From Cellulomonas sp. NS3 (GTDB lineage Bacteria; Actinomycetota; Actinomycetes; Actinomycetales; Cellulomonadaceae), in the NCBI RefSeq assembly GCF_024757985.1, contig NZ_CP103289.1, forward strand, positions 4,526,001 to 4,590,000: 64,000 bases of DNA. The letters run 5' to 3'. Shown here piece after piece: positions 2,239 through 64,000 of this stretch; within the stretch, counting starts at the first letter, position 1; each line of letters opens with the position of its first letter. The position numbers and the translations under genes were made by a program. The notes below the pieces were generated by a model. That model was not told where the DNA came from, searched no databases, and worked only from the letters and a program-made list of their open reading frames with translations.

Positions 2239-3219
2239 TCAGGCCCCCGAGGGCGGCCCTGCCGCCGCAGCGATCCGGTCGACGACGCCCGCGTCGTAGA
2301 AGAAGACCTCCGCGCCGTCCTGCGGGTCGGGCGCCACGTGAAACGTCGCGTGCAGGGACCCGTCGGGGCCGAGCTCGACGAGCGCCGCACCCGAGCCCCG
2401 CACCGCGCGCTCGGCACCCGGCGCCACGAGGGTGTCCGTCCGGTTCGCGACCCCGGGCGCGACGACCACCGGCCGCCCGGCGAACATCCCGGTCGTCGCG
2501 TGGTGGTAGTGCCCGGAGAGCACGACGCGCACGTCGCTGCCCGCGAGCGCCGCGGCGAGCCCGTCCAGCCCGCGCAGCCGGAGCACGTGGTGCAGGCGCG
2601 TGACCGGGGGCAGCGGCGGGTGGTGGACGACAAGCACCGTGCCGCCCGGCGCCGGCGTCCGCAGCTCCTCGCGCAACCGGTCGAGCTGCGCCGCGTCCAG
2701 CCTCCCGTAGCCCGCACCGGGCACCGAGCTGTCGAGCGTGACCAGGCGGTGCGCGCCGACCCACGACACGGCGTCGATCCGCTCCCCGGCGGCCGATCCC
2801 TCCGCGGCCGTTCCCTCGGCGGTCGCCCCGCCCGGGGCCGCGGCCTCGTCGCCCGCGGCCGACGCCTCCCCGGCGCGCCCGTCCCCCGCCCGACCGTCCC
2901 CGAGGTGCCCGTCCCCGAGCACCGCACGGAACGGGTCGCGCTGGTCGTGGTTGCCCGCCGCGAGGACGACCCGCGCCCCGCGGGCGTGCGCCCAGCCGCC
3001 GACGACGTCCCGGGCCGCCGCGTACGACTCGGGGCTGCCGTCGTCGGACACGTCGCCCGAGACCACCACCACGTCCGGCGCGGGGAGCACCGCGCACGCG
3101 GCCAGCACCCGGCGGGTGGCCTCGAGCGTGTCGACCGCCCCGTGGTGCAGCACGCCCGGGGCGGAGAGGTGGGTGTCCGACAGGTGCAGGATGCGCAGGG
3201 GCCGCTCGGTGGAGGTCAT
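2239..3219 (-). CDS. Metallophosphoesterase, CpdA/3',5'-cyclic nucleotide phosphodiesterase-like
   Basis: The protein has 326 residues and the five metallophosphoesterase motifs in order: DTHL near residue 15, GDVSDD near 55, GNHDQ near 90, VHHPPLPP near 200 and GHYHH near 235. These bind two metal ions and hydrolyse phosphodiesters; the layout is that of the IcfG/CpdA type. Unusually, a low-complexity insert of about 40 residues (repeated GDGRAG and Ala/Glu/Gly runs) follows the GNHD motif, making it longer than the usual 250-300. It probably forms a surface loop. The natural substrate (cAMP, phospholipid or other) is not shown by the sequence. Confidence 0.85.
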   Translation of the reverse strand: MTSTERPLRILHLSDTHLSAPGVLHHGAVDTLEATRRVLAACAVLPAPDVVVVSGDVSDDGSPESYAAARDVVGGWAHARGARVVLAAGNHDQRDPFRAVLGDGHLGDGRAGDGRAGEASAAGDEAAAPGGATAEGTAAEGSAAGERIDAVSWVGAHRLVTLDSSVPGAGYGRLDAAQLDRLREELRTPAPGGTVLVVHHPPLPPVTRLHHVLRLRGLDGLAAALAGSDVRVVLSGHYHHATTGMFAGRPVVVAPGVANRTDTLVAPGAERAVRGSGAALVELGPDGSLHATFHVAPDPQDGAEVFFYDAGVVDRIAAAAGPPSGA

Positions 3220-59871: not shown

Positions 59872-60462
59872 GTGACCCGACTCGACCGTTGGGAGCAGCG
59901 CGCCGAGGTGCCCCTGTCCGTGGCCGCGCTCGTCTTCCTCGCCGCCTACGCCGTGCCGATCGCCGCACCGGACGTCTCGGAGAGCACGCGAGCCGTGTGC
60001 GAGACAGTGCTCACCGCGACCTGGATCGCCTTCGCCGTGGACTACGCCATCCGGCTGAAGCTCGCTGAAGCGCGCCGCGCGTTCATCCGGCACAACCTCT
60101 CTGACCTCGCCGTGATCGCACTGCCGATCCTGCGTCCCTTGCGGCTCCTGCGACTGGTCGCGCTGATCGGCGTGCTCAAGCCAGGTGCGCCGCGTTCGGC
60201 GCGGTGATCGCGAGTGCGCCACAGGTAAGGAGCAGCGCAGTGCCGGCGGTCACGTAGGTGACGACCCGTCCTCGCAGGGAGCGAGCGCCGGCGCGGTTGG
60301 CTCGTCGAGCGCGTCGCCGACGCCGCCGAACAGCAAGAGGCCGTGACACGAGACCAGCTCGACGACCTCATAGCAGAGGTCCGCCAACGACGAGCCGAAC
60401 TCGCCAACCGCCGCCGCGCCGACGACGAAGGCGCGCCTGAGGCAGGCGTGACACGTACGTAG
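59872..60462 (+). pseudogene. Voltage-gated potassium channel, broken by inversion and deletion
   Basis: The N-terminal part (59872-60180) reads as helices S1-S4 of an ion_trans channel, ending LRPLRLLRLVALIGVL. The next part of the protein (S5, RSLRGRVVTYVTAG then TALLLTCGALAI) is found on the opposite strand at about 60185-60289. The C-terminal coiled coil (WLVERVADAAEQQEAVTRDQ) is again on the plus strand at about 60298-60462, with stop TAG. The pore loop with TVGYGD and S6 are missing. A stop at 60205 ends the plus frame. The gene cannot encode a channel. Confidence 0.85.
60179..60302. repeat. 13-bp inverted repeat at the edges of the inverted channel segment
   Basis: AGCCA-GGT-GCGCC (60179-60191) and its inverse GGCGC-GGT-TGGCT (60290-60302) share the 5+5 outer and inner bases. 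They lie at the two borders of the inverted S5 segment and probably took part in its inversion. Confidence 0.65.
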
Positions 60463-60478
60463 ACGATCGTTTGAGTGC
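60455..60478. repeat. P element 1 (11-2-11 palindrome)
   Basis: Arms GTACGTAGACG and CGTTTGAGTGC around core AT. Left arm overlaps the TAG stop of the channel remnant. Confidence 0.6.
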
Positions 60479-60893
60479 ATGGATGCGCACGCACGGCCCG
60501 TGTGCGCACGGTCGTCAGCGCCGCACGGCCGGCGACCCGGCCCTCCGGTTCGACCGCGCAGCGGCATGAGCGCGCGTAGGAGTGCGCTCGGAGCATGTGA
60601 CAGGTCTCGGTCCCTCTCGCCTCAGTCGCTCAGCGCCCCGGAAGCGGCGGCAAGCGCCGACAGGCATCCGAGAACCACGGCCCACACGAGAGCCTCCGAA
60701 CGAAGGACTGCGGCGGCACGGCTACGAAAGCAATGGCGAGCGTCGTGAACCATGCGTGGACCGTAGGCCCGGCACAACGCGCACGGAAGCGCCGGCGGCC
60801 CAGCGTTCCCGGTGGACCCCGCAACGGCATGACCGTGCGCTGCGCGCACAGCGGGACCTCACAGCGCACTCGCTGGCCTCCCGCCGAGCGCAT
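60479..60893. other. Stretch without a credible gene
   Basis: Open frames here lack host codon bias. A minus-strand frame ends in a membrane-like LVWAVVLGCLSALAAASG (about 60622-60690) and may be another gene tail, but this is too weak to call. Confidence 0.4.
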
Positions 60894-60917
60894 GCACCTG
60901 AACGGAGGTTTGTGTAC
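60894..60917. repeat. P element 2
   Basis: Arms GCACCTGAACG and GGTTTGTGTAC around core GA; preceded by CAT as in other copies. Confidence 0.7.
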
Positions 60918-60976
60918 ACGCAGTGGCGAGACGCCGCGGGGGCCGCCCTGCGGCGTCCCCAACGCACCAACCAGCT

Positions 60977-61000
60977 GTACTCAAGCCTTCGGTCAGGTGC
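60977..61000. repeat. P element 2b (degenerate)
   Basis: Arms GTACTCAAGCC and CGGTCAGGTGC around core TT. The right arm matches the consensus in 10 of 11 positions, the left in about 6. Confidence 0.35.
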
Positions 61001-61130
61001 AGTGTCCCGTGTGATGAGCCGTCAGTCGCCGCCGCCTGACGCGTGCAGCGTTGGGGCAAGCGTTGTTGCGGTGACGCGTACCGGGTGCCGAGAGTGATCG
61101 ACGCTGCGGGCGGCGCGCCTCGGCCCTCGC

Positions 61131-61158
61131 TTGACAGACCTCAGAGGTTCTCTAGCGT
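61131..61158 (+). promoter_or_regulatory. Promoter of the SDR gene
   Basis: -35 TTGACA (61131-61136), 16-bp spacer, -10 TAGCGT (61153-61158), then 7 bp to ATG 61166. This is the best consensus-like promoter in the window, and the mRNA is nearly leaderless. Confidence 0.75.
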
Positions 61159-61165
61159 CGAGACC

Positions 61166-61903
61166 ATGACCCTCATGCAGTTGCGTGACCTGACTGGGAC
61201 CGTCGTGGCGGTCACCGGTGCCTCCGCCGGCATCGGCCGTGCCATCACCGAGGCGCTGGTTGCCGCGGGCGCCAACGTCGTGGTCGGAGCTCGCCGGCTC
61301 GAGCGTCTCACCGAGCTGGCCGGGCAACTGGGAACCGACCGGGTCGTGCCCGTGCAAATGGACGTGCGCGCGCCCGCCGACAACGCCCGCCTCGTGCAGG
61401 CGGCCCTAGACACCTGGGGCCGACTGGACTCCGTGGTCGCCAACACAGGCGTCGGTCTCTACGGCTCGGTCCTGGACGGCAGCGACGAGGACATTCGAAC
61501 CATGATCGACACCAACTTCACCGGCACCGTCTTCACCGTGCGTGCCGCGCTGCCACCGATGCTCGAGGCCGGTGCAGGCGACATCGTCATCGTCGCCTCC
61601 GTGGCGAGCTTCCGCGGCGGGCCGGACGAGGCCGTGTACGCCGGAACCAAGTTCGCCCAGCAAGGCTTCGCGGGCTCCATCGATCGTGAGCTCCGCGAGA
61701 AGGGGATCCGTGTGACGACGATCAACCCCGCCGGGGTCGAGACGGAGTTCGCGATCGGCAAAGGCCGCACCCAGGGTGACCCCTCGCTCGCGGAGTACCT
61801 GCGCCCGGAGATGGTCGCCCACGCCGTCGTCACCACGCTGCAGCAGCCGCGCGAGATGCGGACACAGCACTGGGCGATGTGGAGCATGCGCCAGGGCAGC
61901 TGA
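61166..61903 (+). CDS. Short-chain dehydrogenase/reductase (SDR)
   Basis: The protein has 245 residues. The NADP/NAD motif is TGASAGIG (17-24), the NAG variant is NTG, the catalytic residues are Ser in VASVASFRGG, Y158 and K162 in YAGTK. C-terminal parts follow the classical SDR pattern (INPAGVETEF). The substrate is unknown; close style is that of serine/3-hydroxy acid dehydrogenase-like YdfG enzymes. Codon use is less GC-biased than in the rest of the window, suggesting transfer. The HAD gene follows after 82 bp. Confidence 0.93.
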   Translation: MTLMQLRDLTGTVVAVTGASAGIGRAITEALVAAGANVVVGARRLERLTELAGQLGTDRVVPVQMDVRAPADNARLVQAALDTWGRLDSVVANTGVGLYGSVLDGSDEDIRTMIDTNFTGTVFTVRAALPPMLEAGAGDIVIVASVASFRGGPDEAVYAGTKFAQQGFAGSIDRELREKGIRVTTINPAGVETEFAIGKGRTQGDPSLAEYLRPEMVAHAVVTTLQQPREMRTQHWAMWSMRQGS

Positions 61904-61985
61904 AGGAGCCGTGGCTCGGCAGACGGAGCCGCGGCGCTGGGCGAGGTTCGGTCGCGGAATCGACAGACCGAAGGAGCACAGACCC

Positions 61986-62687
61986 ATGGAGAACACAGGC
62001 AGCACGGTCCGTGGCGAGCGGGTCCCGAAGGTTGTCGTCTTCGACGTGAACGAGACGCTGAGCGACATGTCGCCGATGTCGGCCCGTTGGAAGAGTGTCG
62101 GCGCGCCGGCCTACCTCGCGCGGCAGTGGTTCGTCGAGGTGCTTCGTGACGGCTTCGCTCTGGCCGCCGCGGGTGCGTCGCAACCCTTCGCAGAGATCGC
62201 CGCTGCCACCGCCGAGCGGCTCCTCATGCCCGTCGGAATCGAGGACGTGCCGGCGGCGGTGAAGCACGTGATGGCGGGTTTCGGTGACCTCGACGTCCAC
62301 CCGGACGTGCCGGACGGCGTGCGCGGCCTTCGCGCCGCCGGGATCCGGTTGGTCACGCTCTCAAACGGTAGTGCCAAGGTGGCAGATGGCCTGCTGACGC
62401 GGGCGGGCCTGCGGGGCGACCTCGAGGCTCTCCTCAGCGTCGACGACGCGCCACGGTGGAAGCCTGCGCCTGAGGCGTACGCGCACGCGGTCCGCTGGGG
62501 CGGGGTGGCGGCGGCCGAGATGCTACTCGTCGCGGTGCACCCCTGGGACATCGACGGCGCAGGACGGGTCGGGATGCGCACCGCCTGGATCAACCGGGAC
62601 GCAGCCCACTACCCCGCATTCTTCCGGCAGCCGGATATCGCAGTGGCGTCACTGACGGACCTCGCAGCGCGGTGGTCCCGGCGATGA
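61986..62687 (+). CDS. Haloacid dehalogenase type II (HAD family)
   Basis: The protein has 233 residues. The nucleophile is D20 in VVVFDVNETLSDM, motif II is TLSNGSAK, the Lys is in DDAPRWKPAPEAYAHA and motif III is AVHPWDIDGAGRVGMRTAWINR. This layout fits L-2-haloacid dehalogenases, which release halide from 2-haloacids, though many family members have other substrates. AAGGAG lies 10 bp before the ATG. With the SDR gene it forms a two-gene unit between P elements 2 and 3. Confidence 0.9.
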   Translation: MENTGSTVRGERVPKVVVFDVNETLSDMSPMSARWKSVGAPAYLARQWFVEVLRDGFALAAAGASQPFAEIAAATAERLLMPVGIEDVPAAVKHVMAGFGDLDVHPDVPDGVRGLRAAGIRLVTLSNGSAKVADGLLTRAGLRGDLEALLSVDDAPRWKPAPEAYAHAVRWGGVAAAEMLLVAVHPWDIDGAGRVGMRTAWINRDAAHYPAFFRQPDIAVASLTDLAARWSRR

Positions 62688-62702
62688 AGCCGCTGCTGGC
62701 CC

Positions 62703-62726
62703 GTACCTGAACGGACGTTTAGGTGC
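62703..62726. repeat. P element 3
   Basis: Arms GTACCTGAACG and CGTTTAGGTGC around core GA, the same core as element 2. It starts 15 bp after the HAD stop codon. Confidence 0.7.
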
Positions 62727-62742
62727 ACCGTCATACGACGCC

Positions 62743-62998
62743 TCAGGTGCTCGGCGGGGTCTCCGAAAACCCTGCGCGGGCGATCGGCTCGCGGAGCCAA
62801 GGCCAGTCGTCCTCGGCCCAGATCGTGAAGCGGTCTACAGCGCCACCCTCGCCCAAAGACAGCTCGACCAGCCACTCGACGTCGGAGTGCTGAACCACCT
62901 CCACCGGGACGAGGTCTGGTGGTGGATGTGGGCCGCGAGGGCGCGCGCCCGCGGCTCGCTCATCACGGGCGCCCCCGCGCGTCGTCGTTCACCCGGAC
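62743..62998 (-). pseudogene. C-terminal gene fragment between P elements
   Basis: A minus-strand frame, open from about 62998 to TGA 62743-62745, contains a protein-like end: VEVVQHSDVEWLVELSLGEG, then FTIWAEDDWPWLREPIARAG. It has no ATG or GTG before the in-frame GTG 62904 and a Pro-rich junk-like lead. It looks like the tail of a soluble protein whose front is lost. The stop lies 16 bp from element 3. Confidence 0.6.
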
Positions 62999-63006
62999 AC
63001 TGTGCG

Positions 63007-63049
63007 TCACGGCCGCTTCTCGCGGAAGTAGCCGGCGCCTTCGCAGGTG
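63007..63049 (-). pseudogene. Very short gene tail next to P element 4
   Basis: A minus-strand frame reads TCEGAGYFREKRP and stop directly beside element 4. It resembles a genuine protein C-terminus cut by the element, but 13 residues are not enough to name it. Confidence 0.3.
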
Positions 63050-63052
63050 CAT

Positions 63053-63076
63053 GTAATCAAACGATCGTTTAGGTAC
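63053..63076. repeat. P element 4
   Basis: Arms GTAATCAAACG and CGTTTAGGTAC around core AT, flanked by CAT and ATG so the dyad extends to 30 bp. Confidence 0.7.
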
Positions 63077-63079
63077 ATG

Positions 63080-63395
63080 TCACGCTGTCGTGCGTTGATC
63101 ATGGCGTCGCAGCGGCTTGGTCAGCCATCGCCGCCACCGGGGCACGATCAGCACCGTCAGCGCCGGTGTGGCGTAGGCGAGGGCTGCCCAGGGGTGCGAT
63201 CGACCCGCGGCGAGGGCTGCCCGGGCATCGCGAACGGCCATCACGACGCCCGGATCGGCCGGGTCGTGCACTAGCTCGAGTGGAGCGGTGTACCGGGAGT
63301 CGGCCGGGGCTTGCTCCCAGTACTGGTACGGGCCCCGCGTGGTCCACCCTGCTTCACGTACAACCGAGCGGAGGTTGGTCGACGCTCCATGCCAT
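63080..63395 (-). pseudogene. Membrane protein fragment lacking a start, between P elements 4 and 5
   Basis: A minus-strand frame is open across element 5 and reads WHGASTNLRSVVREAGW, TTRGPYQYWEQAPADSRY, APLELVHDPADP and then a membrane segment (HPWAALAYATPALTVLIVP) with a basic tail, ending at TGA 63080-63082 against element 4. The sequence is clearly protein-like over about 100 residues but has no start codon before a weak GTG at 63271. The N-terminal part is missing at element 5. Confidence 0.65.
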
Positions 63396-63397
63396 GT

Positions 63398-63421
63398 GCA
63401 CTTGAACGAACGTTCGAGTAC
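63398..63421. repeat. P element 5
   Basis: Arms GCACTTGAACG and CGTTCGAGTAC around core AA, flanked by CATGT and ATG. Confidence 0.7.
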
Positions 63422-63491: not shown

Positions 63492-63842
63492 TCAGCGGCG
63501 GGGATCGACCGGAACGTACCCGCCCTCGGCATCTCGGACGAGCAGCGTCGCGACGTCGCCCGCGACGCGGACGAGGCCTTCGCGCCAGACGCCGTCGACG
63601 AGCATCCGAACCTGGCCCTGACCGTCGCCCGTGGGGAGGGTGTACTCGTCGAGCAGCACGTCGGCGTGTTGCGCCTGCTGCTCGACCTGCCGGGCCAGGC
63701 CCGGATCTGTGCGCGCATCGACGACGAACCAGGCTCCGATGCCCACCGCCGCCACGGTCAGCACGACCAGCAGGGGGACCCACAGCCGCTCGAGCGAGTC
63801 GCTGCGCCCGCGAGGCATGTCTTTCGCCATTTCGAGGAACAC
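63492..63842 (-). CDS. Hypothetical single-span membrane protein
   Basis: The protein has 116 residues. A charged N-terminus (MAKDMPRGRSDSLERLW) leads to one membrane helix (VPLLVVLTVAAVGIGAWFVV) and a C-terminal extracellular domain of about 65 residues (VRMLVDGVWREGLVRVAGD, LVRDAEGGYVPVDPRR). GTG 63842 is chosen because GGAAGGAG lies 6 bp before it; ATG 63830 is also possible. No family recognised. The 158 bp to the right edge contain nothing I can name. Confidence 0.72.
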   Translation of the reverse strand: MFLEMAKDMPRGRSDSLERLWVPLLVVLTVAAVGIGAWFVVDARTDPGLARQVEQQAQHADVLLDEYTLPTGDGQGQVRMLVDGVWREGLVRVAGDVATLLVRDAEGGYVPVDPRR

Positions 63843-64000
63843 GTCCGCTCCTTCCCGCCGGCCGGGCCGGCTGCCCAACACCGGCGTCTGGTGCGCCGCC
63901 GCGACGCGGAACGCGCAAGCCAGGGTTCATGCCATCGTCACACGACGGTCAAGCCAGCACCAGGCCACGCTCGTTTGAGCCAAACCGTCGAGACTGCCTC

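Follow-up and report, generated by a model that had tools for sequence, protein, structure and literature searches.

The 64,000-bp window of Cellulomonas sp. NS3 analysed here (C1:4526001-4590000 of the single 4,776,279-bp contig) holds, towards its right end, six 24-bp palindromic sites, each made of two 11-bp arms around a 2-bp centre. The chromosome has six clusters of such sites, and the six in the window form the left part of one of them. We consider it probable that these arrays are an integron-like cassette system whose sites are crossover sites of a small serine recombinase. The initial annotation had guessed at a cassette-forming system with serine-recombinase-like sites, and the guess is supported by whole cassettes that recur in different arrays with their ends at sites, by a central dinucleotide that behaves like the overlap of a serine recombinase and by an inner motif that also lies upstream of some small serine recombinase genes.

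A weight matrix for the 24-bp site, trained on sites of the same genome, placed 62 sites at 10 bits or more in the 420 kb examined, compared with none in the same DNA reversed, and one shuffle of 355 kb yielded nothing above 4 bits. Over the whole chromosome, a 24-letter pattern with up to three mismatches had 61 forward matches versus one in the backward control and these, among the matches listed, fall in clusters. The six clusters lie at 810.8-843.3, 938.5-947.8, 2537-2538, 2762.7-2771.8, 3140-3145 and 4586.5-4592.5 kb; a half-like match at 2784503 (8.6 bits) is excluded from the site counts. The sites had first been described as confined to a 3-kb tail, which holds inside the window, but the window's array (array 5) has three more sites past the window end, at genome 4590035, 4591626 and 4592451, and there are five further clusters. 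Read in one polarity, the genome-wide consensus is approximately (GGT)GYACYTAAACGAWSGTTTGAGTRC(ATGTAC); the arm consensus proposed earlier, GYACYTGAACG, turned out to be a local variant. The CAT/ATG flank described with it exists, but on one side only in 42 of 58 sites, so it marks polarity.

Neighbouring sites less than 4 kb apart delimit 51 intervals of 83-2105 bp (median 803 bp; these statistics omit the 3140-kb cluster, which was found later). Their G+C content is 70%, compared with 75% at 870-930 kb, and a simple caller placed 49 open reading frames (ORFs) in 42 of them. The 25 cassette proteins that were scanned are mutually unrelated, and seven pass the Pfam cut-off (DUF6368, DUF7660, SUFU, PQQ, DUF4232, SDR and HAD).

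The movement of whole cassettes is suggested by their copies. When the arrays and their flanks were compared by BLAST with all examined DNA, seven cassettes were found to occur twice, with both ends inside a site or within 36 bp of one in both copies. Identities are 78.4, 83.1, 87.5, 92.9, 97.8, 98.0 and 98.5% with flanks included, and range from 78.3 to 99.6% after trimming at the sites. Five of the seven pairs are in different arrays, four of these being inverted, and none of the seven has the same neighbours on both sides. For three more cassettes, one copy has a site at each end (within 31 bp) and the other at a single end: 828412-828803 with 939258-939617 (87%), 810810-811636 with 3139340-3140153 (96%) and 2769896-2770480 with C7:74548-75123 of Cellulomonas cellasea (C. 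cellasea; 91%). Also among the matches were an insertion-sequence-like repeat, unrelated gene families and short fragments (60-165 bp) that reach a site at one end at most. Palindromes between short genes could also be repetitive extragenic palindromic (REP)-like repeats or the operators of one regulator, alternatives that the initial annotation had kept in view. We give them next to no credence: the copies, among the matches listed, are clustered instead of genome-wide, the sites are tied to rearrangements, the scanned proteins between them are unrelated, arm complementarity is not kept, and the stop of homologous DNA at the sites already contradicts such a reading.

One pair of copies differs by a single cassette. 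Two adjoining cassettes at 832491-833825 have a copy at 840234-843286 in which a third, of 1718 bp, stands between them. Site 833122 consists of the left half of site 840865 and the right half of site 842583, the two ends of the missing AA/AA cassette and, judged from the letters alone, is the scar of a cassette kept in the sister copy. Judged from its half-sites, the exchange lies between positions 5 and 13 of the 24 (counted from 0). Arms within a site differ by 2.36 mismatches of 10 versus 2.31 in shuffled arms (67% of the shuffles being as low or lower), and in 9 of 58 sites they have no mismatch. Since arms are no better matched than shuffled ones, the result fits reassortment of half-sites and not a hairpin under selection.

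The centre is AT in 28 of the 62 sites and AA or TT in 30. Along the arrays, AT and non-AT centres alternate: 41 of 54 neighbours differ in class where 28.5 are expected from shuffling within arrays (P 8e-5). Without the second copies of the seven duplicated cassettes the count is 34 of 47 (expected 24.3, P 0.0016), and when both sites of a pair must reach 30 bits, 34 of 40 differ (expected 21.7), a value attained by none of 50,000 shuffles. The four arrays with at least nine sites give P values of 0.024, 0.045, 0.023 and 0.22. Nine other positions of the site show no alternation (lowest P 0.086), and the class is kept at all 14 ends of the seven two-ended pairs. With the phiC31 integrase, recombination is efficient only when the 2-bp overlaps match, and symmetric overlaps can be joined in both orientations (PMC3936721). 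Under a rule of this type, recombination between like sites would preserve the alternation, single cassettes would be locked and a cassette with like ends could leave alone; the AA/AA cassette 840865-842583, which has like ends, is the one that differs between the two copies.

The cassettes might instead be transposon-like elements with 11-bp terminal inverted repeats and a 2-bp spacer. IS30-like elements insert into one another's ends, and cassettes do carry inverted CGTTTRRGTRC at both ends, with 2 bp between neighbours. Such elements would have no evident reason to alternate their spacers, however, and none of the 25 scanned cassette proteins (from 49 ORFs called) is transposase-like, which makes this explanation very improbable in our view.

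A recombinase origin of the sites is also suggested by their inner part, which in an array site reads AAACGAWSGTTT. On Rhodococcus plasmid pRJH4, TTCCGTAAACG-AT-CGTTTTCGGAA lies upstream of a small serine recombinase gene, and in Rhodococcus sp. USK10 AAACG-AA-CGTTT lies at -128 of another. With the inner 12 positions of the array matrix and a threshold of at least 18 bits, 4 of 38 small serine recombinase loci (9 from plasmids and 29 others) show the motif in the 300 bp upstream, as against none of 4000 random windows. Counted from the start of the gene or match, the four stand at -128, -137, -146 and -170, and two reach at least 25 bits; at the 18-bit threshold there is no motif in 1,340,763 background bases taken from 79 tyrosine-recombinase loci. 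In the outer arms the bases vary from system to system, which would be expected if every recombinase recognized its own sequence.

Under the reading that we prefer, cassettes moved by a small serine recombinase, a typical cassette carries one R half-site end and one L half-site end, and a site consists of two halves and the 2-bp centre. With a recombinase dimer bound to each of two sites, both strands would be cut around the centre and rejoined. From the known chemistry of small serine recombinases, the DNA between like-centred sites would then be excised, inserted or inverted. Of the two alternating types of centre, one is the palindromic AT and the other mostly AA (TT when reversed), so that neighbouring sites would be mostly incompatible and single cassettes held, while pairs or the rarer like-centred cassettes would be movable. 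We infer here the class of the enzyme, the core-matching rule and the pair as the moving unit. A natural counterpart of integrons, built on small serine recombinases and locking itself through alternating incompatible centres, with its content changing by pairs, by like-centred cassettes and by inversion at the palindromic AT, seems to us evenly balanced between true and false.

Several points weigh against this reading. The case is built from sequence comparison, with no movement observed, and the overlap-matching rule would be borrowed from a large serine integrase, that of phiC31. The window's own array does not alternate significantly by itself (P 0.22). Among the copies, the one-ended pair 828803 / 939258 changes from AA to AT, and 938454 / 2537276 changes from AA to TT, inside the non-AT class. 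Non-palindromic centres occur in three of seven R|R sites and in six of nine L|L sites (the L|L calls being partly based on worn flanks), which the matching rule does not predict. A fixed link between the centre and the R half-site was also weighed, and given up on mixed evidence. The arms' shuffled-like divergence could also be explained by independent drift. In the recombinase comparison, 34 of the 38 loci have no inner motif within 300 bp upstream, 3 of 162 windows taken from the same loci further down than the gene start region contain it as well, and the upstream excess over these loci is modest.

The search for the enzyme adds further points on that side. The genome has four PF00239 matches (serine recombinases), at 845054, 855030, 857429 and 128275, and an array-type site lies upstream of none of them, the best inner-motif score being 13.0. 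The gene at 855030 is nearest to Tn3-type resolvases and 128275 is its close relative in DNA. Array 1, the largest, has its last site 14 kb before the recombinase at 857429-857989, which is 61-62% identical to three aligned Rhodococcus proteins and has no array-type site within 420 bp. We regard this recombinase as the best candidate enzyme in the genome, though unproven, a lost enzyme being about as likely. The recombinase at 845054 is closer, 1.7 kb from the last site of array 1, and its C. cellasea copy, apparently frameshifted, is 0.7 kb from a site. Relatives at 78-81% occur in three other genomes (G087, G302 and G075), in which the array pattern has scattered matches with two or three mismatches only. 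No palindrome family was seen near the genes by a detector that found the array in two of three array loci of the genome studied here. Six 845054-type genes have a common upstream block and, in several of them, a separate GTCTCA-type 24-bp palindrome upstream; 845054 was rejected as the array enzyme.

This second family of 24-bp palindromes, with GTCTCA outer arms and a 2-bp centre in the same geometry, is also present in G075, G087 and C. cellasea. It has five copies with at most three mismatches in the genome studied here (845751, 132769, 2511376, 3135571 and 3142013), and in G075 and G087 several members have a serine recombinase gene less than 2 kb away.

The lack of an obvious enzyme also raises the possibility that the arrays are fossils that have lost their recombinase and do not move at present, an explanation compatible with ours and partly overlapping it, to which we assign somewhat less than an even chance. 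No matching recombinase gene was found beside any array, the 3140-kb cluster (20-27 bits) and some window sites are worn, and the sites of C. cellasea are scattered. On the other hand, identities of 98.6% in two cassette pairs and of 99.6% in another indicate recent movement or duplication, and the nine sites with mismatch-free arms also count against this explanation.

A tyrosine recombinase, either an integron-type integrase or Xer, might move the cassettes at a simple site with 9-11-bp arms and a spacer of several bases. The array arms resemble inverted integrase core sites, and the genome has seven PF00589 matches (tyrosine recombinases), although none is within 30 kb of an array and the nearest is about 35 kb away. 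For one of them, a 387-amino-acid protein at 2389483, a search of 39 genomes, the own one among them, gave a close copy (90%) in C. cellasea alone, the other site-bearing genome; the next match reaches 45% along part of its length, and the remaining ones look XerC/XerD-like. In both species this protein lies at the terminus, in syntenic DNA, beside the host dif and a second dif-like palindrome. Its own site is therefore probably another than the array site, and we rejected this protein as the enzyme of the arrays. Near 2,388,060 lies the host dif, GCCGATAATGCACATTATGACAT, spotted by eye after a pattern search had missed it; it is unlike the array site. In 80 loci with relatives of the 387-amino-acid protein, no such palindrome array was found except one CRISPR-like array, the detector having caught the array in one of four loci of the genome studied here; the surroundings of the other tyrosine recombinases were scanned for array sites only. 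Together with an alternation restricted to the central dinucleotide, this leaves a tyrosine recombinase an unlikely agent.

The terminus locus deserves a description of its own. At genome 2388055-2390643, and at L128 7980-10050 in C. cellasea, dif is followed after about 0.5 kb by a near-perfect dif-like palindrome and then by the Xer-like recombinase of 387 amino acids, beside which a convergent recombinase-like gene shows no catalytic motif that we could see. This looks like a third Xer system installed in the clade. The CRISPR-like array, in a Saccharopolyspora endophytica locus (L178, from 2092 on), has 23 hairpin repeats of 22 bp at a spacing of about 72 bp, with an Xer-like gene in the locus.

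Arrays were found in only one of 221 genomes of the family, the one studied here (52 forward matches). C. cellasea has one forward and two reverse matches, and three other family genomes have one match each, with three mismatches. In the stretches fetched from C. cellasea, one site is well kept (41.3 bits) and five score 10.9-27.8 bits, and this retention suggests that the system is older than the species. Strict site patterns found nothing in 84,980 species genomes or in viral contigs, collections in which the own genome may be absent and a search that arrays with other outer arms would escape. The 33-letter site consensus had weak plasmid or phage matches only (E 0.9 or worse). Apart from the C. 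cellasea sites, the highest matrix score in 1.78 Mb of loci from other genomes was 21.6 bits, for a lone site in a locus of G335 that had been chosen for fitting a site pattern. No serine-recombinase cassette array turned up in a literature search, subscription journals being largely beyond its reach.

Within the window, the six coordinates given by the initial annotation were all borne out, as was the geometry of the arms and the centre. The features are as follows (window positions; strand in brackets).

60455..60478 (plus; genome 4586455): 24-bp site with centre AT, the left end of array 5; 33.9 bits, right flank ATG.
60894..60917 (minus): 24-bp site with centre GA on the plus strand; 25.9 bits.
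60977..61000 (no strand assigned): degenerate 24-bp site with centre TT; 22.9 bits.
61166..61903 (plus): SDR oxidoreductase gene of the SDR-HAD cassette; PF00106, E 2.4e-50.
61986..62687 (plus): HAD hydrolase gene of the SDR-HAD cassette; PF00702, E 3.9e-12, matched on a longer reading frame, with the start codon at 61986 picked by eye.
62703..62726 (no strand assigned): 24-bp site with centre GA, the right end of the SDR-HAD cassette; 32.3 bits.
62703..63076 (no strand assigned): 350-bp cassette plus its two sites; second copy at genome 2764047-2764422, 78%.
63053..63076 (no strand assigned): 24-bp site with centre AT; 41.3 bits.
63398..63421 (plus): 24-bp site with centre AA; 37.3 bits.
63492..63881 (minus): ORF of 129 amino acids without a Pfam match, in a cassette that runs past the window end.

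Sites 60894 and 62703 do share the centre GA, as first described, and the degenerate site 60977, with its different centre, lies just inside the SDR-HAD unit that they flank. The stretch 60839-60918 (80 bp) matches the end of a cassette at genome 2537275-2537354 with 91% identity. For the 62703-63076 cassette, homology ends within 4 bp of the sites on both sides and in both copies.

Some observations on the arrays stand apart from the argument. At most sites, ATGTAC or ATGTCTCA follows one arm only (for example, at genome 830748 +24), which gives the site its polarity, and this one-sided flank may be an accessory binding site. Of the 49 cassette ORFs, 34 were assignable and 15 not; 27 of the 34 run from the L end to the R end. 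Three related HATPase genes, RsbW-like by eye (C9:338684-339135 in C. cellasea; 2784218-2784503 and 3138899-3139340 in the genome studied here), end 18-31 bp before an array site, the weak site of 8.6 bits or a cassette edge; it is possible that the ends of such genes are a preferred first landing place for cassettes. Near two arrays lies a 1.49-kb repeat of 99.8% identity (genome 809002-810492 and 2528687-2530178) with a transposase-like ORF that is IS5-like by eye.

The nearest known kinds of system are integrons, Xer/dif modules and the crossover sites of resolvases, and we see the arrays as a variant of the gene-cassette array, working like serine-recombinase sites. Integrons collect attC cassettes by means of the IntI integrase. 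Like them, the arrays hold small, mostly unknown genes in short cassettes with a single family of sites, occupy several places and share cassettes between arrays, with exchange bounded by sites (51 intervals; seven both-ended copies). Unlike them, they have alternating central dinucleotides and no tyrosine integrase found beside them, and their sites, in contrast to attC, are short double-strand palindromes without a kept hairpin, as judged by arm match and not by an attC covariance model. In the dif (pdif) modules of Acinetobacter, moved by XerCD, gene modules are likewise flanked by short recombination sites (PMC6449649). In contrast to those modules, the sites studied here are not dif-like, the chromosome has a separate dif and the arrays are long and chromosomal.

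Site I of res and the hix sites have the same two inverted arms and 2-bp centre, and the inner AAACG-AW-CGTTT is met upstream of some plasmid recombinases, but the array sites bound genes in tens of copies and are not one site beside a recombinase gene. The shufflon and Min of p15B are multi-site DNA inversion systems. The arrays resemble these in having several crossover sites with inverted segments between them, and differ in that cassettes also occur in arrays separated by megabases and that one cassette is missing from one of two copies. A parallel to the proposed role of the centres is serine integrase recombinational assembly (SIRA), in which engineered arrays use orthogonal 2-bp overlaps and attL sites (PMC3936721). 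Cassettes there are also separated by sites with different, non-recombining overlaps, as proposed here, although SIRA is man-made and uses a large serine integrase and attL sites.

If our reading is true, the alternating centres would be nature's version of the orthogonal overlaps that keep engineered serine-integrase arrays in order, and the sites offer a probe for similar systems with other outer arms. Cassette collecting is known from tyrosine recombinases, in integrons and in Xer/dif modules; a serine version, if true, would mean that the strategy arose independently.

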